Source: Chloracidobacterium sp. (GTDB lineage: Bacteria > Acidobacteriota > Blastocatellia > Pyrinomonadales > Pyrinomonadaceae). From it: DNA of 39,118 bases. The translations under genes were made by a program, and so were the position numbers. The notes beneath the pieces were generated by a model. The model saw only the letters and a list, made by a program, of their open reading frames with translations, was not told the origin of the DNA and did not search any database. Below are positions 22,427-35,150 of this stretch, piece after piece. Every line of letters begins with the position of its first letter. Within the stretch, counting starts at the first letter, position 1. The stretch spans positions 1 to 39,118 of the forward strand of contig JANYIL010000294.1 of NCBI GenBank assembly GCA_025362075.1. The letters run 5' to 3'.

Positions 22427-22954
22427 TTACATCTGCCCTTCGTCAGCCGACGGCCCGTAGATCGACGGCACGGGGATGTCGTTGAGGCGTAGATAAACGG
22501 AGAGTTGGCCGCGATGGTGGATGATGTGATTCATCACGAACGAGCGCATTACGGCCACCTTTGGCATTGTCATATAGACCTGCTCGCCGTTTCGCATGGT
22601 CCAGTCGGTCAGAAAGGTCTCATCCGGAGTTTCGCCAAGGATGATCTTGGCCTTAGCGATGTGATCGTCAAAGAATGCGAGCAATTCTTGGGTTGTTTTA
22701 GGCTCGAAAGGCTTGAAATCGGCCGTCGCAAAGTCCAGAACGTCCTGTTTCAAAGTTTCTTTTGTCCATCCGAACATTTCGGCGCAATGCGAAGCAAGAC
22801 GCCCGAAGGTCATTGATTTTTCGTGCGGCTGCCAGTCAAATTTGTCGGCAGGGACGCGTTCGAGGCAACTGCGCGTAATCTTTGCCTCGTTATCTAATTC
22901 TGCCAAAAAAGCCGTCGCAACACGGCCTGAACTCGTAGCGGTACTTGTAGTCAT
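22427..22954 (-). CDS. DinB-family putative metalloenzyme
   Basis: The 175-residue protein has a DinB/YfiT four-helix bundle. Metal-ligand candidates are the histidine in RLASHCAEMFGW and the pair in MNHIIHHRGQLSVYLR, which is the family's best-conserved region. DinB-like proteins include bacillithiol and other thiol transferases, but many are uncharacterised; the name does not imply DNA polymerase IV. A CAGGAG site precedes the ATG. A good promoter with a palindrome lies upstream (22993-23022). Confidence 0.87.
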   Translation of the reverse strand: MTTSTATSSGRVATAFLAELDNEAKITRSCLERVPADKFDWQPHEKSMTFGRLASHCAEMFGWTKETLKQDVLDFATADFKPFEPKTTQELLAFFDDHIAKAKIILGETPDETFLTDWTMRNGEQVYMTMPKVAVMRSFVMNHIIHHRGQLSVYLRLNDIPVPSIYGPSADEGQM

Positions 22955-22992
22955 AATTTTACTCCTGTTTTGATTTTCGAAATTAGAAGACC

Positions 22993-23022
22993 ATAATACC
23001 AGAGACGTTGCACAAATGCAAC
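22993..23022 (-). promoter_or_regulatory. Sigma-70-like promoter with overlapping palindrome, for the DinB-family gene
   Basis: On the minus strand TTGCAT (23016-23021) and TATTAT (22993-22998) are separated by 17 bp. A perfect inverted repeat GTTGCA-N4-TGCAAC (23007-23022) covers the -35 element. That placement would suit a repressor operator. The promoter lies about 40 bp upstream of the start codon. Confidence 0.6.
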
Positions 23023-23149
23023 ATGAAACGGTGGGTGTATTGACAAATATTTTAGTCAGGTCTGTTCGGAAAAATCGGTCGCCCTTACATGAATAAAGAA
23101 ACGAGAGCTTGTAAATTTACGTTTTCACAAGCAATAAACACGGTCAATT

Positions 23150-24613
23150 TCATTTAAGATTCATTTTCCGCCGCAGTGCCTGAAAACGAGAATCGTTTCG
23201 CAGATTGGCAAAACGCGGCTCGGTATTTATCCACGCGAGGCGTTCCTCGTGCCTTTCATAGCACTGCTCCAATGCCTGGAGTGCGTCGTCGATTCGGCCG
23301 TTTTCGGCGTAATTCATCGCGAGTGAATACGTGGCCTTTGTTTCATTGTGCGAGAGAGTTTCAAGTTTCATCAGAGCATCTGCGGCCTTTTCGGTCTGTC
23401 CGGTTTTTAGATATGAGGCGGCAAGCAATGAGAGCCAGGCAAAAGGCGTCTTGTTTGGGCCTTTCCCAAAGACATCTTCGCCAATCTCAATCACCCTTTG
23501 ATAGTCCTGTTTATGATATCGAAATGTTGCAACGGCCCGTGCCGCTAGGTTGCTGCCCTTATTTTCGCGCCAAAAATCCTCGGATTCTTTTAATGCTTCG
23601 TCAAACTCGCCCCGCGCCTCAAGAATCGGAAATCGCGAGCCGATGTTAACCTCGGAAACCGGGTCCATCTCATAAGCTATCTGACTTTCAGACAAAGCCT
23701 CGTCAAGCTTGCCCACGACGGCCAATGTCTGGGCCAGACGCTGATGGCCTATCGCGCTTTTTGGGTTTAGCTCAATCGAATGCCGCAAATCGCTCTCGGC
23801 TCCTGGCCAGTCCCGGTCGAAGTTTCGGCTGAGCCAACCGCGAACCACATAGCCCTCCGCCAGATTTGGTTCAAGGGCCAGGGCTTTATCGGCGGCAACC
23901 TTTGCCTTTGTGATGCTCTCACGGTTCTTTGGATAGGGAATCTTTACGGCCAGCGTGGCAAATCCCTCGGCGAGACCAGCGTAGGCAATCGCGAGTGTTG
24001 GATCGAGAGTAACCGCCCGTTCAAATTCATCAATGGCCTTTTCTTCCCGATTTTCGACCGATCTGCTTTCGAGAACCATTTTTCCACGGAGATATACCTG
24101 CATTGCCTCCGTGTTTTGACCTTGGGAAATGTCTGCCGCTTTTGCCGGTTTTCCGGAGCGCCAAAAAAACGCAAAACTCGTCAAAAATAAAATCCCGATA
24201 ATCGATGCGGATACAAAAACCCAGCGGAATGGTTTTCTTTCCGCAACTGGAGTGCTCTGCGGAGATAAAGTGGATACCGGGCCGCTTCCGTTTTGCGAAA
24301 TTTCCCGGACCTCAGCCGCAAAACGATAGCCGTGTTTGGGCACGGTCTGAATAATATCTTTGTTGTCAAAAAGTTTTCTGAGCAGCGATACGGTGTAATT
24401 TATATTGCCTTCTTCGACAAAAGTGTCTTTCCAGACGGTTTCGATCAGCGTGTCGCGCGAGACGATCTCACCTTTTTTGCAAACGAGCAGGATTAGCATC
24501 TCAAGCGCCTTCGGTGAAACGGGGACTAACTGGTTGCCGCGCCACAAACTCGGATTTTCGACGTCAAGACGAAACTCCTCAAACTCGTAAAATTGCTTAG
24601 CATTACTGGGCAT
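23150..24613 (-). CDS. ToxR/CadC-like membrane regulator: winged helix, TM segment, TPR domain
   Basis: A 487-residue protein. Residues 8-105 form an OmpR/PhoB-type winged helix (LVPVSPKALEMLILLV, then TVSLLRKLF and VPKHGYRF). A single membrane helix follows near 134-152 (VFVSASIIGILFLTSFAFF), and the rest is a run of TPR helices in the periplasm. It would sense something outside the inner membrane and bind DNA inside. Proteins of this design are frequent in Acidobacteriota. It is divergent from the envelope-protein block at 24738, which is a plausible target. Confidence 0.88.
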   Translation of the reverse strand: MPSNAKQFYEFEEFRLDVENPSLWRGNQLVPVSPKALEMLILLVCKKGEIVSRDTLIETVWKDTFVEEGNINYTVSLLRKLFDNKDIIQTVPKHGYRFAAEVREISQNGSGPVSTLSPQSTPVAERKPFRWVFVSASIIGILFLTSFAFFWRSGKPAKAADISQGQNTEAMQVYLRGKMVLESRSVENREEKAIDEFERAVTLDPTLAIAYAGLAEGFATLAVKIPYPKNRESITKAKVAADKALALEPNLAEGYVVRGWLSRNFDRDWPGAESDLRHSIELNPKSAIGHQRLAQTLAVVGKLDEALSESQIAYEMDPVSEVNIGSRFPILEARGEFDEALKESEDFWRENKGSNLAARAVATFRYHKQDYQRVIEIGEDVFGKGPNKTPFAWLSLLAASYLKTGQTEKAADALMKLETLSHNETKATYSLAMNYAENGRIDDALQALEQCYERHEERLAWINTEPRFANLRNDSRFQALRRKMNLK

Positions 24614-24619
24614 TTGCGA

Positions 24620-24641
24620 AACCTAACAAAAACCTAACAAA
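24620..24641. promoter_or_regulatory. 11-bp tandem direct repeat, candidate winged-helix operator
   Basis: AACCTAACAAA occurs twice head to tail (24620-24630 and 24631-24641) in the intergenic region between the regulator (start at 24613) and the envelope block. OmpR/PhoB-family proteins commonly bind direct repeats of 11-bp period. The site is six bases from the regulator start codon, so autoregulation is a reasonable guess. Confidence 0.45.
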
Positions 24642-24737
24642 TTCCAAAGGACATGATTTCACCTTAAAAGATATAACTATTTGCATCGCAAGGCAAAAGT
24701 TTTAGAGATGGTTAAATTATTAAATTTGGAGATAGAA

Positions 24738-25589
24738 ATGAAAAAAAATCTAGTGTTGATCGCGTTATGTTTTTTGTTGTCGGCATGCGGAGCGGGATCT
24801 TTGATACCGGCCGGTCTTGCGGGCGGTTCGAAGACGAAAGTAGGTGACACGGTGGTCGCGAAATGGTCAACGGGATCATACTACGAAGGCAAAGTAGAAA
24901 AGATCGACGGCGGCAAAATGACGATCGCATGGGAAGACAAATCTCAGGCGACGGTTATCGATTCGGCTGATATTTATGCGATCCCCACAACGGGGACTCT
25001 ACCGGATGTGAAACAAGGCGACATGGTGCTCGCCAAAACGGCGTCGGGTGCGTATTGGAATGGCGCCGAGGTGACAGGCATTGACGCGGGGGTGTACAAG
25101 GTGCGGGTCGTCACAGGCTCCACATCCGTCAACGTCGCGGGGGAAAAGATAATAAAAGTTCCGGCAACCGCCGCGGCCGATTTCAAGCAAGCGGCCGGCT
25201 CGACCGATTTCCTGACCGAAGCTAAAAAGGGCAAGGTGACGATTCCCGCCGACTATAAGCCGAAAAAGGGAGATTCCGTCCTCGCCGAGTGGTCGATAGG
25301 CAGTTGGTGGTCCGGAAAGATCGACAACATCTCAGGCTCGAACATTTACGTTGCTTGGAACGACAACTCAAAACCATCGGCAGTAAACATAAGTAAAGTT
25401 ATGCCTTTGCCGACCTCAGCCGATAAGTCAATGCCGACAGAGAAGCAATTTTTGATAGTAAAACCAGACAGCGGCTCTAGCTGGCTGTATGGACAGACCA
25501 CCTCGGTCAACGGCAACAGGGTAGAGGTGAAACTTGCCAATAATCAGACAAAAACGGTTACAGCGGGCGAATTTGTTTTGCTGAACTAG
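24738..25589 (+). CDS. Lipoprotein with four tandem Tudor/SH3-like modules
   Basis: From the ATG at 24738 (GGAGATAG upstream) the protein is 283 residues. It has a signal peptide ending in LLSAC, so it is lipid-anchored. The mature part is four repeats of about 50 residues, each opening like VGDTVVAKWSTGSYYEGKV or KGDSVLAEWSIGSWWSGKI and then showing a D/G turn and a strand such as MTIAWEDKS. This pattern resembles Tudor/Agenet SH3-like barrels. The second and fourth units have diverged. The ligand is unknown. The first gene of the co-directional envelope block. Confidence 0.78.
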   Translation: MKKNLVLIALCFLLSACGAGSLIPAGLAGGSKTKVGDTVVAKWSTGSYYEGKVEKIDGGKMTIAWEDKSQATVIDSADIYAIPTTGTLPDVKQGDMVLAKTASGAYWNGAEVTGIDAGVYKVRVVTGSTSVNVAGEKIIKVPATAAADFKQAAGSTDFLTEAKKGKVTIPADYKPKKGDSVLAEWSIGSWWSGKIDNISGSNIYVAWNDNSKPSAVNISKVMPLPTSADKSMPTEKQFLIVKPDSGSSWLYGQTTSVNGNRVEVKLANNQTKTVTAGEFVLLN

Positions 25590-25642
25590 GTTCGTAGAAA
25601 TTCACGCGGGGGGCACTCTAAAAATTAAGTGAGGATTTACAA

Positions 25643-27019
25643 ATGAGAAACAAAGTTACAACTCGATGGGAATTTATGTTCGTCGTCATCTCTATGACCG
25701 CAGTTACTACCATATCCGTTTATGGACAAATAAGGATTCCCAAGATCCTAAAGCCGAAAGAAAATCCGCCGGTCCAAATTCTAACCCCGCAAAACCCGCA
25801 GCCTCAGACGCCTACGAGGCCGCCTGGAACTCGTCCGGGGACGGAGCAGGCTGAAACGATCTCGGAAACGGGCGGCAATTTTCTTGATGACGGTTATACA
25901 TGGTTTGAGGCGGTCAGCACAGAGGAACTAAGTCCACAGCACCGTCCGGTCACTACCGGATGGGTACTTAAATCTGAAATTCGCCTGATCGGAGATTATC
26001 CGCGCCAAAGCGCGCTAAAAGTAAACGTATCGAGAGCCGGACAGGTGCTGGGGACGACTCGTTGTGAGGCTTTTCAATATAAAAAAGACGCGAGCCATCT
26101 TAAGGTGAGTTCGCTCGTTACGATCGCCTGTTTCGATAAAACCAAGACGATCAAAGAACTCGGGAAATTCGACGTTGAGGTTTTTGCCATCAACGGCGCC
26201 ACCGATGCCGAGAGTTCCGTGCGTAAATACAAAATCGAAGTCCTTAAGGTTGACCGCATCGGCGGAGGGTTTAGCAATCCGCAGCCGGACGCACCGCATT
26301 ATTATATTTCGCGTCACGCCGAGGCCCCTGTCAGCTTTCTGTTCTTGCGGCCAAAAAATGTCTACAGCTATATCGGTTACGATGAGCGCTCGCCTGTGTT
26401 GGATATGAATACGGTCGAAATTTATTTCAGCCTTTCCCCATCCGACGAAAGAGTGCGAGACGGTTATCTGAGCTGTGATGTTGACGGCAGACATCTGGAA
26501 CTGCCGGGCGGCCAACCGTATTCGGATAAAACTGATATAAACACCGAGCGGCATTACGAGGAGATCTACACCGACCGTCTGGCCGCGCAATACAAAGCCG
26601 GAACGCCCTATCGGGACGAAATCAGATTTACGTTTGTAAGGATGGTCTTACCTCTGACGTTCGGCGACGACAGAAACCACAGCCGCGTGACGATGAAAGA
26701 TCATCCAGGGAATTGGCAGTGCAGTTTGATGGCCAGCGGCGAAACGTGGCGAACGTGGCGTTGGAAAGTGGGGCCCGACGGAATGCTTGTCAAGCACGCA
26801 GAGCAAAACGGCAACATTAATCTCTCGTACAACACATACCTTATTGACATGGAAATTCCGGCCGGCGGTAGTAAATTGGACAAACGCCTCGCCCCGACTT
26901 CCGCCACGGATGGTTTGTTCTACGGGCAGCCGTGGACAACGCCCGAAGGCAGAGCGATGGCGGCGAAAGTTTCGACCAAAGGAAAGCCGGCGCCGATTCC
27001 ATCAAACCAGGTTAAGTAA
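25643..27019 (+). CDS. Exported protein of unknown function, tandem paralogue 1
   Basis: A 458-residue protein with a signal peptide ending near SVYGQ and a proline-rich stretch (QNPQPQTPTRPPGTRPG). The large mature domain is shared with the next gene. Shared blocks include TWFEAV, GWVLKS, KFDVEV, YYISRHAEAPVSFLFLRP, PGNWQCSLM and a matching end TPEGRAMAAKV. It has few cysteines and no catalytic motif that I can name. GTGAGGA precedes the ATG. Confidence 0.78.
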   Translation: MRNKVTTRWEFMFVVISMTAVTTISVYGQIRIPKILKPKENPPVQILTPQNPQPQTPTRPPGTRPGTEQAETISETGGNFLDDGYTWFEAVSTEELSPQHRPVTTGWVLKSEIRLIGDYPRQSALKVNVSRAGQVLGTTRCEAFQYKKDASHLKVSSLVTIACFDKTKTIKELGKFDVEVFAINGATDAESSVRKYKIEVLKVDRIGGGFSNPQPDAPHYYISRHAEAPVSFLFLRPKNVYSYIGYDERSPVLDMNTVEIYFSLSPSDERVRDGYLSCDVDGRHLELPGGQPYSDKTDINTERHYEEIYTDRLAAQYKAGTPYRDEIRFTFVRMVLPLTFGDDRNHSRVTMKDHPGNWQCSLMASGETWRTWRWKVGPDGMLVKHAEQNGNINLSYNTYLIDMEIPAGGSKLDKRLAPTSATDGLFYGQPWTTPEGRAMAAKVSTKGKPAPIPSNQVK

Positions 27020-27032
27020 GGAGTAAACAACC

Positions 27033-28388
27033 ATGAAACGCATAGCCCAAACAGTTTGCCTCGGCATTTTCACTCTCGTATTGACGAATATTGCAGTCGT
27101 CGGACAAATAAAAATTCCGAAGATTTTCAAACCGAAGACGGAGCAGCCGGTTCAAACGCAGCCGCCGATTCAACCAAATCCCCCAACATCAACATCGGTT
27201 AATGGAACGCGCGAATCTATCCGGACTAGCGGCAGTTTTGTTGACGACGGATTTACATGGTTTGAGGCGGTCCCAACAAAAGACCCGGAGATAAAGCAAA
27301 CAAATGTTTACACCGGCTGGGTTTTAAAATCATCGATTCGGTTGATGGGCGTTTTCCCGGCCCACAGCGCTTTCAAGATCGTCGTCTCTCGTGCCGGCTC
27401 GCAGGTTTCCAGTAATCGTTGTGAAACCAGCAGCTACAACATCCCCGCGAATAATCCGGCGGATGTCAGCTTTATTTATGCGTCCGGTTGTTGGAATAAC
27501 GAGATGGCGACAAAAGACGTGGGCAAGTTTGACGTTGAAATCATCGCCATAAATGGCGGCACGAATGCCGAAACCTCGGTAAGAAAATATAAAATCGACG
27601 TTCTCAAAATTAACCGCGTCAACACTCAGACGGGCAAACTCTCGGCACCGGACTCGCCGCGCTACGTCATTTCGCGACACGCCGAAGCTCCGGTCAGCAT
27701 TCTTTTTCTTCGTCCATCGCGGGCTTACGGCTATGTTTTTTTGGGTGCGGCCGGAGCAACCTCGATCGTCAATCAAGTAGAAATTCTATTCAGCCTGTCG
27801 CCGAGCGACGCCGCGAAACCTATTCCTTACGGAACTATGCGTTGCTCCGTTGACGGTAAACGGCTGGAATTTCCGGGCAGCGGATTGCAGGCGGACCTCG
27901 CCGTCAGTCACGAACAACGCCAATACCAGGAAATTTACAGCGACCGTATAGCGGCTGCATATTATACCGGGCCCTCCTATCATGATGAGATCGGTTTTCG
28001 TCTGGTGCTCGTTACTTTGCCGCTTACATACGGCACAAAGGGAGATGGGTATCGGCTGAGTTTGAGTAATTATCCCGGGAATTGGGAATGCAGCTTGATG
28101 AACAACGGCGAAAAATGGCGAACGTGGCGTTGGACGGTCGACCGCGACGGGATGCCGGTCAAACACCCGGAACAAAATGGCAACGTCAATCTTTATTTCA
28201 ATTCTTACTTGATCGACACGGAATTTCCCGCAGGCGGCTCGGCTCTCGACCAGCGACTAGTTCCAACGTCCGCCGCCGAAGGTTTTTTCTACGGTCAAAA
28301 ATGGACAACACCCGAAGGCAGAGCAATGGCGGCGAAGGTTCCGACCAAAGGAAGCCCTATTCCCGTTCCGTCAAACAAAATTAAATGA
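27033..28388 (+). CDS. Exported protein of unknown function, tandem paralogue 2
   Basis: A 451-residue relative of the previous protein, starting 13 bp after it with GGAGT upstream. The whole length aligns, including the signal peptide, the proline linker, the ISRHAEAPVSILFLRP block and the C-terminal TPEGRAMAAKV tail, so this is a whole-gene duplication. By eye identity is roughly half. Middle sections (for example the loop around AYGYVFLG) differ most. The function is unknown. Confidence 0.78.
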   Translation: MKRIAQTVCLGIFTLVLTNIAVVGQIKIPKIFKPKTEQPVQTQPPIQPNPPTSTSVNGTRESIRTSGSFVDDGFTWFEAVPTKDPEIKQTNVYTGWVLKSSIRLMGVFPAHSAFKIVVSRAGSQVSSNRCETSSYNIPANNPADVSFIYASGCWNNEMATKDVGKFDVEIIAINGGTNAETSVRKYKIDVLKINRVNTQTGKLSAPDSPRYVISRHAEAPVSILFLRPSRAYGYVFLGAAGATSIVNQVEILFSLSPSDAAKPIPYGTMRCSVDGKRLEFPGSGLQADLAVSHEQRQYQEIYSDRIAAAYYTGPSYHDEIGFRLVLVTLPLTYGTKGDGYRLSLSNYPGNWECSLMNNGEKWRTWRWTVDRDGMPVKHPEQNGNVNLYFNSYLIDTEFPAGGSALDQRLVPTSAAEGFFYGQKWTTPEGRAMAAKVPTKGSPIPVPSNKIK

Positions 28389-28401
28389 GGAAACAAATCA
28401 A

Positions 28402-28500
28402 ATGAATAGCAGAAGTGTGCCTTTTAGAAAATATATGTTTGCGGCTCCGCTAATATTAGCGTTTGTGGCCTTCGCGGCGGCCCAGGAGGAGAAATTATGA
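28402..28500 (+). CDS. Signal-peptide-only small ORF
   Basis: A 32-residue frame with basic N-terminus MNSRSVPFRKY, hydrophobic core, and a good cleavage site AAAQ, ending EEKL. A GAGG site precedes it. Its stop overlaps the start of the next gene (ATGA). It is essentially only a signal peptide: either a remnant of a lost exported protein or a small coupled leader peptide. Confidence 0.5.
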   Translation: MNSRSVPFRKYMFAAPLILAFVAFAAAQEEKL

Positions 28501-29837
28501 TGAATTCAAAAACCTTATCGTTATTGTTAGCGCTTATTTTAAGCGTAGGTTTATACGGCACTGCGGCGGCGCAGAATACTTTTCGCGTCGGTGATACGGT
28601 CGTGGTTCCCGACGGCCGGACGGGCAAGGTCGAAGCATTCAAAGATCAGGATTTGGTAAAGGTGAAATTCGGCGAAAATGATTCTAAATACTTCCTGCTG
28701 AAAGACGTCAAGGAGGCGGTCGACCCTTCGGCACCGGTTTTCCGTGTCGGGGATAGGGTTGCGGTCAAAGCAACCAATAAGGAAGGCGTGGTCGAGTCGA
28801 TTACAGACAAAAGGGATGGGGCAAAGGGAAAATTTGGGCCTGGCAAATATGACTTTCAATGGGTTTTCTTCAAAGACTTGATAACTCCGCAAGCGGCGGC
28901 CCTACAGCGCAGCCGCGAGCAGGATGAACTAAAGCAAAAGCCCATTCGCGCGCAGTTTGAGGATGACGCGAAGCCGTTTGCGTCAGTGATTACAAATTTC
29001 GCTCACGTATACGATTCGAAGTACCAGATAGGATTTACCGTGCCGGATGATCCCGCCGCTTACGAGAAATCGAGAAAAGAGTTGGAAGGACTCGCTGTAG
29101 TCTGTCAAAAATATCCGAATCTGACCAACCCGCCACGTGCTTACGCGGACAGCATCAGCCAAAATCCCGCCGATTGGTGCAAGATGGCGGAGCAGCGAAC
29201 GTCTTTAATCAAGAAAATGCAAATGAAGATGGGCGAGACATACGCTAAAGGCGAGGCTGACCTTTGGAAACTTAAAATTGCCGAAGCGATGAGAAATGAC
29301 ATCGGGACCATCTATGACAACTTGCAAATGCTGCTTTACGACCGTCCCTCGTGGGAACAAAAGAATATGGAGGGTAGTCGAAAAAGATACGCCTATGCCG
29401 GCGAAAAAGTACCGGCGGAGGTATTCGCTTCGCTCAATGAAAAAGTAGACGAATTAAAAGCCCGGATCGAACGAGAGGCTCCGGCCCGCAATTGGGAAAA
29501 GCCGGAATACGCCGATGTCGCCCTGGAAGCAATGGTCCGGCGGGCGTTTCCGGCGAAATATCCCGGCGGCCAGCTTTTGAAAACGGGGATGACTTACGCG
29601 ACCTGGAAATCCAGCGACGACACTTCGCTCGTGGGAACTGTCCCCGGTTACAAGGTTTATCGAACCGAAATCGGCAAATACCGCTTCAAAAATGGCCGAA
29701 TGCTGATCAAATTACCGAATCAGCCTTTTTGCCAAAGCCGCGACTTTACCGTCGAACAGACCAAAACCGGCGGGGCATACTCGGGAACAAAACTAAACGG
29801 TTTTAACGACAAGGGAATTTTTGTGAAATGTCCTTGA
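28497..29837 (+). CDS. Exported protein with two KOW/Tudor-like modules and a helical region
   Basis: A 446-residue protein with a signal peptide to about AAAQ (26). Two small barrels follow: FRVGDTVVVPDGRTGKVEAF with VKVKFGENDS, then FRVGDRVAVKATNKEGVVES. They resemble the units of the lipoprotein at 24738. The next 200 residues are helical and charged, and the C-terminus is strand-rich with two cysteines (PFCQSRD and FVKCP) that may pair. GGAGGAG lies upstream. It is coupled to the small ORF before it. The function is unknown. Confidence 0.75.
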   Translation: MMNSKTLSLLLALILSVGLYGTAAAQNTFRVGDTVVVPDGRTGKVEAFKDQDLVKVKFGENDSKYFLLKDVKEAVDPSAPVFRVGDRVAVKATNKEGVVESITDKRDGAKGKFGPGKYDFQWVFFKDLITPQAAALQRSREQDELKQKPIRAQFEDDAKPFASVITNFAHVYDSKYQIGFTVPDDPAAYEKSRKELEGLAVVCQKYPNLTNPPRAYADSISQNPADWCKMAEQRTSLIKKMQMKMGETYAKGEADLWKLKIAEAMRNDIGTIYDNLQMLLYDRPSWEQKNMEGSRKRYAYAGEKVPAEVFASLNEKVDELKARIEREAPARNWEKPEYADVALEAMVRRAFPAKYPGGQLLKTGMTYATWKSSDDTSLVGTVPGYKVYRTEIGKYRFKNGRMLIKLPNQPFCQSRDFTVEQTKTGGAYSGTKLNGFNDKGIFVKCP

Positions 29838-29871
29838 CTGTTGGATTGAGCGACAAAGGAGAATTAATAAA

Positions 29872-30095
29872 ATGGACAACATTTTTACCGACGATTTTAA
29901 CAATCAACCAAATTCTACCGACAGCGATTTCCCGGCAATTGCTCCTCGGCGGGCCAAGGTGTCTGGGCTGATATCCATCTTACATGCTTTTATGGCGGCT
30001 AGCTCCGCTATTATCGGCACGGGTGTTCCTTTGTGATGACAATCATCTCGGCGATTTTCGTTTTGAAGGCGAAGAAAACGCCGCGTAACTGTTGA
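29872..30095 (+). pseudogene. Small two-TM membrane protein split by a frameshift, or two coupled ORFs
   Basis: A 54-codon frame (29872-30036, AAGGAG upstream) encodes a polar N-terminus and a hydrophobic segment GLISILHAFMAASSAIIGTG. It stops at TGATGA, where a second frame starts (30036-30095; MTIISAIFVLKAKK). Joined by a one-base shift, they give a plausible two-helix membrane protein with a positive tail. The short overlap could also allow reinitiation, so the damage is not certain. Confidence 0.5.
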
Positions 30096-30114
30096 ATCAA
30101 AAAAGGAGAAATTT

Positions 30115-30612
30115 ATGAAATACATCTTGTTAATTTTTAAAATAGCCTTAATTTCGGCGTGGCTTGCGTCGAGTCTGGCTTGTGGCTCTCAGAGCCAAAG
30201 CCACGTAATTGAAATAGTGCGCCACATGACCATCGTTGACATGTTGTCGATTGCGAGGCTCATTGCCTTTCTGATCGTATGTTTGGCAGGCGTAATTTTC
30301 GCAATAGTTCGTTGGAAACGTCATAAGGGGATATCGATGTTTACGATTGTCATCCTGAGTCTCAACGCAGTCGTGGCTACCACTATTACAGTCGTCCGAT
30401 TTTACTGGATCGAGAGTGAAACCCACCGAATTCTCAACACCGGCGGCGAAGACAGGTTTATGCAGATGGCCCTTCGTTTTCACGGTATTTACAACTTGTT
30501 GTTGCTGGCCGGTGACGTTTTGCACTTATTGACCGTTGTATTTTTGTTGGCCGCTATTTTTATGAGGCGGACCGAGCGCGATTTGCCCGCAAGCCAAGGT
30601 CCCGTTTCGTAA
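30115..30612 (+). CDS. Small multi-pass membrane protein
   Basis: A 165-residue protein with about four hydrophobic segments (the first may be a signal peptide or lipoprotein-like leader ending SSLACGS). These include LIAFLIVCLAGVIFAIV and LLLLAGDVLHLLTVVFLLAA, separated by short polar loops and a basic WKRHKG turn. GGAGAAATT precedes the ATG. No family was recognised. It sits in the exported-protein block. Confidence 0.68.
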   Translation: MKYILLIFKIALISAWLASSLACGSQSQSHVIEIVRHMTIVDMLSIARLIAFLIVCLAGVIFAIVRWKRHKGISMFTIVILSLNAVVATTITVVRFYWIESETHRILNTGGEDRFMQMALRFHGIYNLLLLAGDVLHLLTVVFLLAAIFMRRTERDLPASQGPVS

Positions 30613-30689
30613 CTGACGAAGTCATCGCCGTTTGGAATGCGAGGAAAACTTTATAGTAATGGAATCGAAAACAAAAAGTGAGGAAAACT

Positions 30690-31148
30690 ATGAGAAATCA
30701 AATAACTAATCTTGCGTTGATCTTGTTTGCAACCGGCTTCGTTCTTTCGTGCGGTATGTTTGGCGGAAGTGAAAATAAGGTAATCGGCAACAGTGCAAAG
30801 AAAGCGGGTGTAAATTGTCCAACACAATCCATTTCCGTTACCGAAGCCAAAGGCGGTCTTGCTAAATGGGAAAACTGTGAATTGAGCGTGGAGGGCAAGA
30901 TCTGGGAAATAAAAAGCGATGTGATCAGCCTGATCGAGACCACAGACCGGAACGATCTAAACGGCGCTTTTGTTGTCAGCGGGACATTTACCGACAGCCG
31001 ATTTGGGACTATCGGGCAAAGGATCGAAGATAACAAATTATCACAGAATTTCGATAAATTGCCGATTGCGATATTTACAGGCATTGTCGAAATCCAAGGC
31101 GGTTCTGGCAAACTAACACACTGTCATCTTACCGATTCGCGTAAGTAA
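30690..31148 (+). CDS. Lipoprotein of unknown function, possible OB-like fold
   Basis: From the ATG at 30690 (GTGAGGAAAACT upstream) it has 152 residues with lipobox FVLSC. The mature region contains LAKWENCELSVEGKIWEIKS followed by strands and an acidic loop, a strand pattern reminiscent of OB-fold tRNA_anti-like lipoproteins. Three further cysteines (VNCPTQ, WENCEL, THCHL) lie in the mature part. The fold suggestion is by eye only. Confidence 0.65.
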   Translation: MRNQITNLALILFATGFVLSCGMFGGSENKVIGNSAKKAGVNCPTQSISVTEAKGGLAKWENCELSVEGKIWEIKSDVISLIETTDRNDLNGAFVVSGTFTDSRFGTIGQRIEDNKLSQNFDKLPIAIFTGIVEIQGGSGKLTHCHLTDSRK

Positions 31149-31220
31149 AATAGCGGTTACTCCGGCTTATCTCGCCATTCCCTGAAAGATCGATCCGTAG
31201 TTACCATTTGGCGGTGTGAA

Positions 31221-31991
31221 ATGAAATTTGAAACCGGTGTATTTTATATTATCGCTGTAATTTTAGTCTTGGCGATGCTTATCATTTTGCTCAGTGGAAT
31301 TATTTATATTTCGGTGAGAATGTTCAGGAAATCGATGCGGCGCACGGCGGCGATGCAGGCCTTTGCTAAAGAAATGGGTTTCAAATATGAGGGCGGAATG
31401 GTTGTATCCGGACAACTTGAGGGCGTACTAGATTTTTATCTTTTCACTTTGGGCAGAGACGGAACCTCCAAGCAGATCAGAAACTTAGTGACGGGTGAGA
31501 TGGGCGCCTTTCATGTTTCAGTTTTTGATTATGCGCATGTTGCGGGCGGCAAGATGGGTCATGGATATAACATTGGCGGCGGCATCAAGCTGGGTTATTT
31601 TCCTCGCGGCGGCGGCGGCGGTCGATTAAAAGTGCAGACGGTCGTGATGATCGAGTCGCCGCAACTGAATCTACCGCTTTTCGCGATGCGTCCCGAACTT
31701 GAAGGGGTCTTTGAGCAGATTGTCGAGACGTTCAAAAGGCAGGACATAGATTTTCCTTTGAATCCGATTTTTTCCGGCAAATATTTTCTCAGTGGCGTAG
31801 ATGAGCAACAGATCAGGCAAGCCTTTAGTGACAGAGTGCTTTCATACTTCGAAAAATCTCAATCTTTCAGCACCGAAGGCGGTGAAAACCGGATCTTTAT
31901 CTACCGCTCCGGCGTGTCGTTCGAGGCAGCCCAATTGCCCTCAATGCTAGACGAAGGAATAAAAGTGGCAAATCTTTTTTTGAAGCCGTAA
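31221..31991 (+). CDS. N-terminally anchored membrane protein of unknown function
   Basis: A 256-residue protein with one N-terminal transmembrane helix (IIAVILVLAMLIILLSGIIY), a basic stop-transfer segment MFRKSMRR, and a cytoplasmic domain that includes a glycine-rich loop (PRGGGGGRL). GKYFLSG and RIFIYRSG are likely strand motifs. A weak GGCGGTG precedes the ATG. I do not know a named family. It lies in the same co-directional block. Confidence 0.7.
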   Translation: MKFETGVFYIIAVILVLAMLIILLSGIIYISVRMFRKSMRRTAAMQAFAKEMGFKYEGGMVVSGQLEGVLDFYLFTLGRDGTSKQIRNLVTGEMGAFHVSVFDYAHVAGGKMGHGYNIGGGIKLGYFPRGGGGGRLKVQTVVMIESPQLNLPLFAMRPELEGVFEQIVETFKRQDIDFPLNPIFSGKYFLSGVDEQQIRQAFSDRVLSYFEKSQSFSTEGGENRIFIYRSGVSFEAAQLPSMLDEGIKVANLFLKP

Positions 31992-32012
31992 ATGTTCTCA
32001 ATAGGTTTTATT

Positions 32013-33023
32013 ATGAAAACTTTAATCAAAATTTCGCTCGCATTTGTCTTTTTGCCATGCATTCTCGCGGGTTGCTCTAGTGGCCAGATAACTGACCTTT
32101 CTACCGACGAAGCGGTGCGCAAAGAGCTTGCGAAAAATAGCGAATTAAAATCCAAACTGGACCGCCTCTGCATTGAAAGACTCAAAGGGACCGAAGCCAT
32201 TATCGTGATCGGCACACATGCAAACGACAGCGATTGCCATTTGGAGGGTGCATTTATTGGTTCCGCCTATCTTGAAGACAGCGCGGAATTATCGCAAAAC
32301 GTTTTGAACGCCCTAGGTTGGCAAAAGGCGAATCCGAAAAGGCGCGAAGAGTTGGCAAAATTTTGGGTTGAAAAAGGCCTTTTGGCATTTTCGACGGTGC
32401 TTTTTACAAAGGACAAGAGTTTTCCAGGAGATGATTTTCAGGCGCCGCTGACCGTGTCAGGGGAGAACGGAGAAATTGTTATTACGCTGTGGACAAGCGT
32501 CATGAAAAGAACAATGGATTTTGAGCATCTTCAATATCGGTTTGCGGCGGATGGCAAATTGCTTGGAAATCGGATGTTAAATGTAGAGCTAAATGTAACT
32601 GACGAAAAATGTGTCAATCGATTCCCTGAGTTGCCAAACATTGTCGTGAAAGGGTCTTTCAGAACCGATTACGGATGCCATTTTGAGGGCGTGTCTGTAA
32701 ATTCACGTTATTTTGAAAAAGACGATCCGGCCTTGTCAAAATATGCCCTTGACGCACTCGGTTGGGAAAAAGCGAACCAAAAGGAACGTGAAAAATTAGC
32801 GAAACTTTGGGTCGAAAAAGGCTTGCTGGGTTTTACCTACGCGCTTTACTCGAAAAACAAAGATTTGAATGACGGCGGGTTTGTCCCGCCAAAAGTTGTT
32901 TCCGCAGAAAACGGTGAAATAACGATTACGCTTTGGATTCAGATGCCAACGGGAATGAGAAATAGGCCAAAGGATTTTCAACGTCTTGAATTCAAGTTTG
33001 CGAAAGATGGGAATCGCTTATAG
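32013..33023 (+). CDS. Lipoprotein with internal duplication
   Basis: From the ATG at 32013 it has 336 residues, with a lipobox ILAGC. The mature protein is two copies of one domain. Shared segments are CHLEGAFIGS and CHFEGVSVNS, LNALGWQKANPKRREELAKF and LDALGWEKANQKEREKLAKL, WVEKGLLAF and WVEKGLLGF, and ENGEIVITLW and ENGEITITLW. The second copy ends the protein. The cysteines match between copies. No named domain was recognised. The upstream ATG at 31992 is an alternative start with no better site. Confidence 0.75.
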   Translation: MKTLIKISLAFVFLPCILAGCSSGQITDLSTDEAVRKELAKNSELKSKLDRLCIERLKGTEAIIVIGTHANDSDCHLEGAFIGSAYLEDSAELSQNVLNALGWQKANPKRREELAKFWVEKGLLAFSTVLFTKDKSFPGDDFQAPLTVSGENGEIVITLWTSVMKRTMDFEHLQYRFAADGKLLGNRMLNVELNVTDEKCVNRFPELPNIVVKGSFRTDYGCHFEGVSVNSRYFEKDDPALSKYALDALGWEKANQKEREKLAKLWVEKGLLGFTYALYSKNKDLNDGGFVPPKVVSAENGEITITLWIQMPTGMRNRPKDFQRLEFKFAKDGNRL

Positions 33024-33080
33024 CGGTCAAGGATTTACAGATAAAGTTGGATTAATTTTAGAAACGAACGGAGGAATATT

Positions 33081-33866
33081 ATGAGAGTATTGACGATCAA
33101 ATTTTTTATAATGATGTTATTCGGGATGCTGAGTTTGCTAAGCGCCTTGGCTCAAACCAGCACTATAACACCGAACTCGGACGCGGCGGCCGGATTAGAC
33201 CTGTATGCCGTTGCCGAACTTTTTAAGGATTCCGAAAACCTTGAAAAGTTCGAACAGAATCTAAATAATCCTGAAAAAGGGATAAATAATATTGACCTGA
33301 ATGGCAATGGTGAGATCGACTTTATTCGAGTTACGGACAAAGTTGCTGCCCAGACACATCTGATTATCTTGCAGGTACCGCTTGGCAATGACGATTACCA
33401 GGACGTGGCTACAATCGCCCTAGAACAGGAAAATGGCAAAAATTATAATTTACATTTCCAGGGCGACCCGTCGATCTACGGCGAAAACTATTATGTAGTG
33501 CCCGCCAATAACAATTTTAGCGCGTGGAAAGTAGTGCGGTGGCTGTTCACGCCCAATTACCGGCCGTATTATTCGCCCTACGGCTACAAAACACTACCAG
33601 GTTGGTGGATCGTCCGCCGGCCCGTTACTTACGCGGTTTATCACACGAGAACAGGGGTCTTCGCCGGAAGGAACTTCGTGGCGAGTAGAACCCTGCGAGT
33701 CAAAACCATCGCAAACGTCAATTATCATCCGCGAACCTCGACCCTCGTGGTTAAGAAGGTTGCTGTGACGCATGCCCCGGTTACGCCAACGCGGCCAGGA
33801 AACGGCGGTCGAACAACCGTTGTCACAACAAATACCAAGGTTGTAAAACCCAAAAAAAACCATTAG
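33081..33866 (+). CDS. Exported protein with a Ca-binding-like loop, Bacteroidota-type family
   Basis: A 261-residue protein with a signal peptide (to SALAQ) and GGAGGA upstream. The mature part contains GLDLYAVAELFKDSENLEKF and IDLNGNGEIDFIRV, an acidic dockerin- or EF-hand-like loop, then a strand-rich region with FQGDPSIYGENYYVVPANN and a tyrosine-rich stretch, ending in a basic tail. The arrangement is familiar from uncharacterised Bacteroidota exported proteins. Calcium binding is inferred from the acidic loop only. Last gene of the block. Confidence 0.7.
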   Translation: MRVLTIKFFIMMLFGMLSLLSALAQTSTITPNSDAAAGLDLYAVAELFKDSENLEKFEQNLNNPEKGINNIDLNGNGEIDFIRVTDKVAAQTHLIILQVPLGNDDYQDVATIALEQENGKNYNLHFQGDPSIYGENYYVVPANNNFSAWKVVRWLFTPNYRPYYSPYGYKTLPGWWIVRRPVTYAVYHTRTGVFAGRNFVASRTLRVKTIANVNYHPRTSTLVVKKVAVTHAPVTPTRPGNGGRTTVVTTNTKVVKPKKNH

Positions 33867-33898
33867 GCACCCATTTTCGTAGGGCACGTTGTATCTTG

Positions 33899-35092
33899 TT
33901 ACGTCTTCAAAAGGTGTTTGGCGATAACAATCCGTTGTATCTCTGACGTGCCTTCGCCGATCGTGCAGAGCTTTGAGTCGCGCCAGTATTTTTCGGCGGG
34001 GTAATCTTTCGTATAGCCGTAGCCGCCGTGGATCTGGACGCTTTCCTCTGAAACGCGAACCGCCGTCTCGGATGCGAAGAGCTTTGCCATCGCAGATTTT
34101 TGCGTCACGGGCTTTCCGATGTCTTTTGTTGCGGCGGCCTGTAGCGTCAGCAAGCGCGAACACTCGATCTGCGTAGCCATGTCGGCGAGCTTAAACTGGA
34201 TTGCCTGAAAATCGGCGATCGGTTTGTCGAATTGCTGACGTTCCTTGGCGTATTTTACGGCGGCTTCGTAGGCTCCCTGGGCGATGCCGACAGACAGAGC
34301 TGCGATTGAGATGCGTCCGCCGTCGAGGATCTTCATTGCCTGTTTAAAGCCGTCGCCTTCGACGCCGAGCAGATTTTCCTGTGGCACATGACAGTCTTCG
34401 AAAACGACCGAGGCCGTCTCGGAGGCTCGCATGCCGACCTTGTTCTCTTTCTTATCGCCGCGAAATCCGTCCATCGACTTATCGAAAATAAACGCCGAAA
34501 TACCGTGTGTGCCTTTCTCTTTATCAGTGACGGCGACCGCGACCAGCGTGTTGCAAACGATAGCGTTCGTAATGAAATTCTTCGAGCCATTGACGACCCA
34601 ACCGTTCGGAGTTCCAGCTTCAGCTGGCTCTTTGTCCGCGTTGGGCCAACTAAAGTTGGAACTCCGAACGGCTGTTGTCCGCGTTCCCGATGCATCCGAA
34701 CCTGCCTGCGACTCCGTGAGGCCCCACGCTCCGAACGATTCTCCGCGAGCAAGTGGAATGAGATATTTCTGCTTTTGGGCCTCGCTGCCAAACGTGTAGA
34801 TGTGGTTTGAGCACAGCGAATTGTGGGCCGCGACCGTTAACGCCACTGAGCCGCAGACACGTCCCAGCTCCTCGATGATCGTGGCGTATTCGACATAACC
34901 CATACCCGCACCGCCGTATTCCTCGGGAAAAATAATTCCCAGCAGACCGAGTTGCGCTAGCTTTGGCCGAAGATCGTCAGGAAAATGCTGTACCTCGTCC
35001 CACTCCATGACGTGCGGACGGATCTCGCTCTCGGCAAATTCGCGGATGCTGTGTTTTATCTGTTGCTGTTCTTCGGATAGTTCAAAATTCAT
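33899..35092 (-). CDS. Acyl-CoA dehydrogenase with an in-frame repeat insertion
   Basis: From the ATG at 35092 the 397-residue flavoenzyme oxidises acyl-CoA to enoyl-CoA. It shows the FAD-binding signature [13 protein letters not shown] (124-136), the KNFITN block, and the catalytic base E380 in GEGTSEIQR. The longer upstream frame is not part of the gene. Residues about 141-164 (from SSNFSWPN to TPN) sit where relatives have a short turn before GWVVNGSK, and are encoded by the palindromic element at 34602-34671. No ETF or hydratase gene is near. The substrate is unknown. Confidence 0.92.
34602..34671. repeat. In-frame palindromic element (B-like) inside acyl-CoA dehydrogenase
   Basis: Perfect 15-bp arms (34602-34616 and 34657-34671) enclose two hairpins, CCAGCT-TC-AGCTGG and CCAACT-AA-AGTTGG. 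This gives a cruciform with two side hairpins. The hairpin cores resemble the CTTTAG cores of the element at 14550. It is read through in frame on the minus strand without a stop. Confidence 0.85.
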
Positions 35093-35150
35093 ATTATGAC
35101 GATATAATAAACATTTATGATGACATAACATGAGAGTCACGAGCAAACGG

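Follow-up and report, generated by a model that had tools for sequence, protein, structure and literature searches.

What kind of genetic unit is formed by the run of largely unnamed genes that lies beside a membrane-anchored regulator in this soil-type bacterium, a Chloracidobacterium sp. (Pyrinomonadaceae)? The initial annotation had described the run as an uncharacterised envelope-protein block and as a candidate for an undescribed cell-surface system. We analysed the 39,118 nucleotides that surround it (hereafter the window), which are one whole contig of a 3.9-Mb draft genome, and compared the block with the genomes of relatives. The description as an envelope-protein block stands, but that of a single defined system does not, because the gene set is not fixed and most members of the genus lack it. 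The natural unit, delimited by a homology break and by a lower GC3 (see below), is an island of about 10.9 kb (23030 to 33897) that comprises the regulator and the array of exported-protein genes.

Gene content of the block

Positions 24738 to 33866 hold eleven ORFs on the forward strand, nine sizeable and two tiny (Cx and E), and nearly all are unnamed. The intergenic gaps are 13–78 bp long, except at Cx/D and H/I, where the ORFs overlap or abut, and a clear ribosome-binding site of the GGAG/GAGG type precedes nine of the eleven (all except H and I). Every ORF of the array has a hydrophobic N-terminus or a membrane segment, as compared with 11 of the 29 other genes in the window (Fisher p=3e-4). 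This test is crude and identical for both groups, and it understates the contrast because some of the positives in the flanks are soluble enzymes. B, G and I have clear lipoboxes, and F has a weak one. The block is thus a co-directional, short-gap array of envelope-protein genes with mostly good ribosome-binding sites, as had been claimed from its sequence. We found no terminator-like site on the coding strand of the array gaps. Promoter-like sites within the block number 18 (9.7 expected), so sub-operons are possible.

The first gene, B (24738 to 25589), encodes a lipoprotein with about four Tudor/SH3-like repeats. It matches PF15057 (E=1.6e-7, 31.8 bits for a cut-off of 27) and 53-BP1_Tudor (23.9 bits for a cut-off of 22) in Pfam, and its profile matches Tudor-SN (2wac, E=1.2e-7). 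The repeats align across the barrel with the Tudor domains of Tudor-SN, PHF19/PHF1 and 53BP1, and repeats 1 and 3 have W, Y/W, W and D at cage-like positions, corresponding to the cage of 53BP1 and PHF19. A complete aromatic cage was found in none of them: repeats 1 and 3 lack the last aromatic residue, and the combination is absent from repeats 2 and 4. The Tudor fold is best known from eukaryotic chromatin readers, whereas B is an exported bacterial lipoprotein. A literature search on bacterial Tudor lipoproteins and on CadC regulators of Acidobacteria returned nothing on point.

Next come two exported proteins, C1 (25643 to 27019; no Pfam or NCBIfam family) and C2 (27033 to 28388), whose 54% identity marks them, at the sequence level, as a tandem duplication. 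The predicted fold of C consists of beta domains (pLDDT 74), for which a fold search returned antibody light chains only (E~2e-4, TM~0.2); we regard the model as a generic Ig-like sandwich and nothing more specific. The exported protein D (28497 to 29837) has two SH3/Tudor-like repeats at its N-terminus, a helical middle and a beta C-terminus, and its fold search gave no match below E=0.1. Neither fold search points to a function. Between C2 and D, the 32-aa ORF Cx (28402 to 28500) is a bare signal peptide and probably the remnant of a DUF4087 (PF13316) gene: at a related locus (L059) a tandem C pair is followed by a DUF4087 gene in the same position, whereas the copy in the window is cut down to its signal peptide.

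The remaining products are small or membrane-bound. E (29872 to 30036) is an ORF of 54 aa with one hydrophobic segment and is possibly frameshifted. Past its stop (MTIISAIFVLKAKKTPRNC), reading goes on in another frame (29872 to 30100), which suggests a frameshift or else a separate small ORF. F (30115 to 30612) is a membrane protein with about three transmembrane segments, G (30690 to 31148) a small lipoprotein and H (31221 to 31991) a protein anchored by an N-terminal transmembrane segment. The lipoprotein I (31992 to 33023, with a likely start at 32013) has two copies of a domain of about 140 aa (46% over 140 aa), an internal duplication, and J (33081 to 33866) is exported and has a basic C-terminus. 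No family was found for F, G, H, I or J, and no enzyme was found among the block products in Pfam or NCBIfam.

The regulator and the repeats at its start codon

The regulator, REG (23150 to 24613, reverse strand, 487 aa), is divergent from the array. It has a winged helix-turn-helix domain (wHTH) at residues 29–98 (PF00486, E=1.3e-13), one strong hydrophobic segment at about residues 130–152, as read from the translation, and, past this segment, a region with TPR matches in Pfam. The ToxR-like TPR regulator that had been noticed beside the block is therefore confirmed. An N-terminal wHTH of the OmpR/PhoB type, a single membrane segment and a tandem-repeat candidate operator place REG in the CadC/ToxR type, and divergent target genes, like the array beside REG, are a further likeness to the CadC, ToxR and HilA systems. 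REG differs from them in that its C-terminal part is made of TPRs and that the candidate operator lies right at its own start codon. It is also far below the cut-offs of the NCBIfam equivalogs for HilA/EilA (85.6 vs 589 bits) and CadC (59.5 vs 400 bits). From this architecture, the TPR part is plausibly a periplasmic sensor.

The divergent gap between REG and B is 124 bp long and contains, directly upstream of the REG start codon, three phased units of 11 bp, AACCTAACAAA-AACCTAACAAA-TTCCAAAGGAC (24620 to 24652), which form the candidate operator. The two-repeat core, CCTAACAAANNCCTAACAAA, has one exact copy genome-wide; when up to three mismatches are allowed there is one further match in the genome, whereas the reversed-pattern control gives two. 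A single-copy core fits a local regulon consisting of REG itself and the array, to which REG would bind here. Tandem operators of the PhoB/OmpR family (of the pho box type) are direct repeats about 11 bp apart, i.e., one helical turn. The repeats at REG have the same spacing but a different core (CCTAACAAA at REG, TTGA/CTTGAGAA-like in relatives), and REG, unlike PhoB and OmpR, is a one-component regulator whose operator is a candidate only.

The leader of REG has a tandem match of 9/9 (p=0.007), and its lag-11 excess, taken alone, is reached by 14% of control leaders. The pattern is clearer across the family, where we surveyed 52 CadC-type regulators and 257 control leaders, with start codons set by rule, which introduces some register errors. 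Pooled self-matches of the 12 regulators beside B, C or D arrays peak at lag 11 (z=7.4) and lag 22 (z=5.7), and those of the 40 other CadC-type regulators peak at lags 10–11 (z~10) and 20–22, as compared with an autocorrelation of z=1.4 in the controls. The control leaders rule out a general 10–11-bp periodicity of DNA as the source of the repeats. Since phased repeats are common upstream of the CadC-type regulators of the family and not in controls, local auto- and cross-regulation is likely. In another genus, a regulator 51% identical to REG (L054) is divergent from a D gene and has a near-identical sequence, CCTAACAAATTCCTAATAACTTCCAAAGGAC, at the same place.

Across the family, CadC-type regulators (L169–L208, L235–L244) have the 10–11-bp repeats immediately 5' of the start codon, often with a run of exported-protein genes opposite them. 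Among ten CadC-type regulators that had not been picked for their proximity to B, C or D, five directly face genes with a signal peptide, and others do so after one or two genes.

Insertion site and neighbourhoods in relatives

The block is flanked by a DinB-like gene (22427 to 22954) and an acyl-CoA dehydrogenase gene (33899 to 35146) that are usual neighbours in the genus. Among the 21 genomes of the genus with both genes on one contig and in the same arrangement, fewer than 250 bp separate them in 15, fewer than 700 bp in 18 and about 2 kb in two. In one genome (G077) a different insert of 8.8 kb (L128, 5183 to 14029) lies between them, which marks the site as an insertion hotspot. In the closest empty site (L114) the homology with the window ends at 23029 and returns at about 33905; the insert is thus exactly REG plus the array. 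The genes of the block also have a lower GC3 than the flanks (0.54 vs 0.66, p=1.8e-5). A palindrome-like sequence, GTTGCA(C/T)AAATGCAAC, lies upstream of the DinB-like gene (22955 to 23029) and is also present at the empty site.

We considered whether the island is an integrative mobile element or a prophage, and rejected this, since it has no mobility or phage gene and no att repeats: Pfam gave no match to integrase, transposase or phage genes in the block, the two island ends share no 8-mer that would indicate terminal repeats of at least 8 bp, and PHROGs returned a single weak match. Likewise, no match to C was found in plasmids and none to D in phages.

The gene families of the block are patchily distributed. 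C occurs in 12 of 60 genomes of the family and extends to Myxococcota, B occurs in 8 of 60, D in 17 of 119 and I in 5 of 119, and full-length J was found only in the window and in one other genome (G039). The families nevertheless recur together: B-D-I in the order of the window in G002 (L051), D-...-I in G103 (L162) and C-...-J-...-I in G039 (L042, as C-C-J-I). Pairs of these families at most 12 kb apart number 9 for 0.19 expected (by genome, 3/12, P=1e-3). Divergent Trans_reg_C genes lie within 4.3 kb upstream of 9 of 17 C loci, for 0.17 expected from gene densities measured in ten genomes and assumed for the rest; because all these loci were fetched via C, this linkage tests the regulator side only. 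Conservation of the neighbourhood had been set beforehand as the refutation test for the block, and recurrent neighbourhoods of B, C, D, I and J are indeed present in relatives. The same comparison rules out a shared fixed gene set, since these genes are reshuffled. The neighbourhood is thus a conserved modular gene pool, whose members recur together, and not a fixed machine. Some C genes are solitary and lie beside housekeeping genes (L155, L158–L160), so C is independent of the array.

A second type of switch, absent from the window, precedes B, C and D families in L043, L045, L051, L055 and L058 (and partly in L052). It is a trio in which the TPR-CHAT protein is exported and the anti-sigma-like protein lies in the membrane; the third member is sigma-70-like and matches TIGR02989 (E=1.3e-14 at best) and, weakly, the sigma model of type III-E CRISPR systems. 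The composition of the trio resembles the TPR-CHAT/CASP-sigma/Csx30 circuit of type III-E CRISPR systems (PMC10028731), but its TPR-CHAT protein carries a signal peptide in the related arrays, in whose vicinity we noticed no CRISPR genes. The trio is possibly a CRISPR-free circuit that follows the same logic as Craspase.

Readings of the island and further genes of related loci

We favour the reading, with a probability of roughly 0.55, that the block is an acquired accessory genomic island, i.e., a self-contained and locally regulated cassette for envelope response. REG would most likely be anchored in the inner membrane, its TPR region on the periplasmic side, and would bind the three phased repeats as tandem subunits, controlling its own gene and, upon a signal, turning on a divergent polycistron from B to J. 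The products, taken as binding-type proteins with Tudor-like, Ig-like or other beta domains, would fill the periplasm and the membranes, presumably as an accessory coat or protective layer and not as an enzyme pathway or a machine. The unit, inserted between dinB and the acyl-CoA dehydrogenase gene, would have drawn on exported-protein genes that are pooled across the family and also lie behind other regulators.

The main rival is a hotspot of integration that has gathered accessory genes for exported proteins with no relation to one another, which share an address with the regulator but no joint function. We hold this to be possible, although appreciably less probable. The different insert that G077 has at this site, the flexible gene sets and the solitary C genes are what such a hotspot would leave, as are the decayed Cx, the possibly broken E and the tandem duplications. 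What tips the balance towards the envelope-response cassette is the linkage together with the candidate operator: C is associated with divergent regulators, and B, D, I and J with each other, above chance, the order B-D-I is kept across genera, and the repeats in the divergent gap are unique. An immunity or competition array, with lipoproteins that guard the periplasm against toxins delivered by neighbours, appears unlikely. Its small and diverse lipoproteins, in duplicated and quickly reshuffled arrays, would suit that role, and related arrays (L042, L043) include a DUF5675-like gene and peptidoglycan-binding-like genes, all named by eye; yet the block contains no toxin or delivery gene, and searches of PADLOC, Pfam and NCBIfam matched none of its proteins to a known family for immunity or defence. 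Nine proteins gave no PADLOC match at E<=0.01, which also speaks against an anti-phage defence system. A dedicated surface machine for secretion, adhesion or transport is very unlikely, even though every product is exported or membrane-bound and a sensor-type regulator is divergent from them: Pfam and NCBIfam reveal no ATPase, outer-membrane channel, porin, pilin or TonB-type component, nothing in the block is similar to a secretion, pilus, S-layer or transport machine, and the gene set is not fixed in relatives.

The island is apparently one of many interchangeable cassettes of the family that combine a switch with envelope proteins. More speculatively, and with considerable doubt, Pyrinomonadaceae may use plug-and-play envelope-response cassettes, in which exported binding proteins from one common stock are placed under either a CadC-TPR/phased-repeat switch or an exported TPR-CHAT protease/sigma/anti-sigma switch; the Tudor-like lipoproteins among them might recognise extracytoplasmic ligands of a methylated or quaternary-amine kind, and the block would then be a case that has moved recently. 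If the reading as an envelope-response cassette is right, the wiring rule (a regulator, a phased operator at its start codon and a divergent exported array) would allow the CadC-type regulators of a poorly cultured lineage to be paired with their targets. It would also give an entry into large unnamed families of exported proteins of Acidobacteriota, including one with Tudor-like repeats.

Other genes accompany these families in relatives. A putative metallopeptidase-like family (c9, with an HExxH-like motif seen by eye) is a neighbour of C in three loci (L048, L050, L041), in two of which a family of small lipoproteins (c33) is also present. In L051, a protein that resembles by eye a tail tube of phages or contractile systems (882 to 1274) is encoded about 6 kb from B-D-I.
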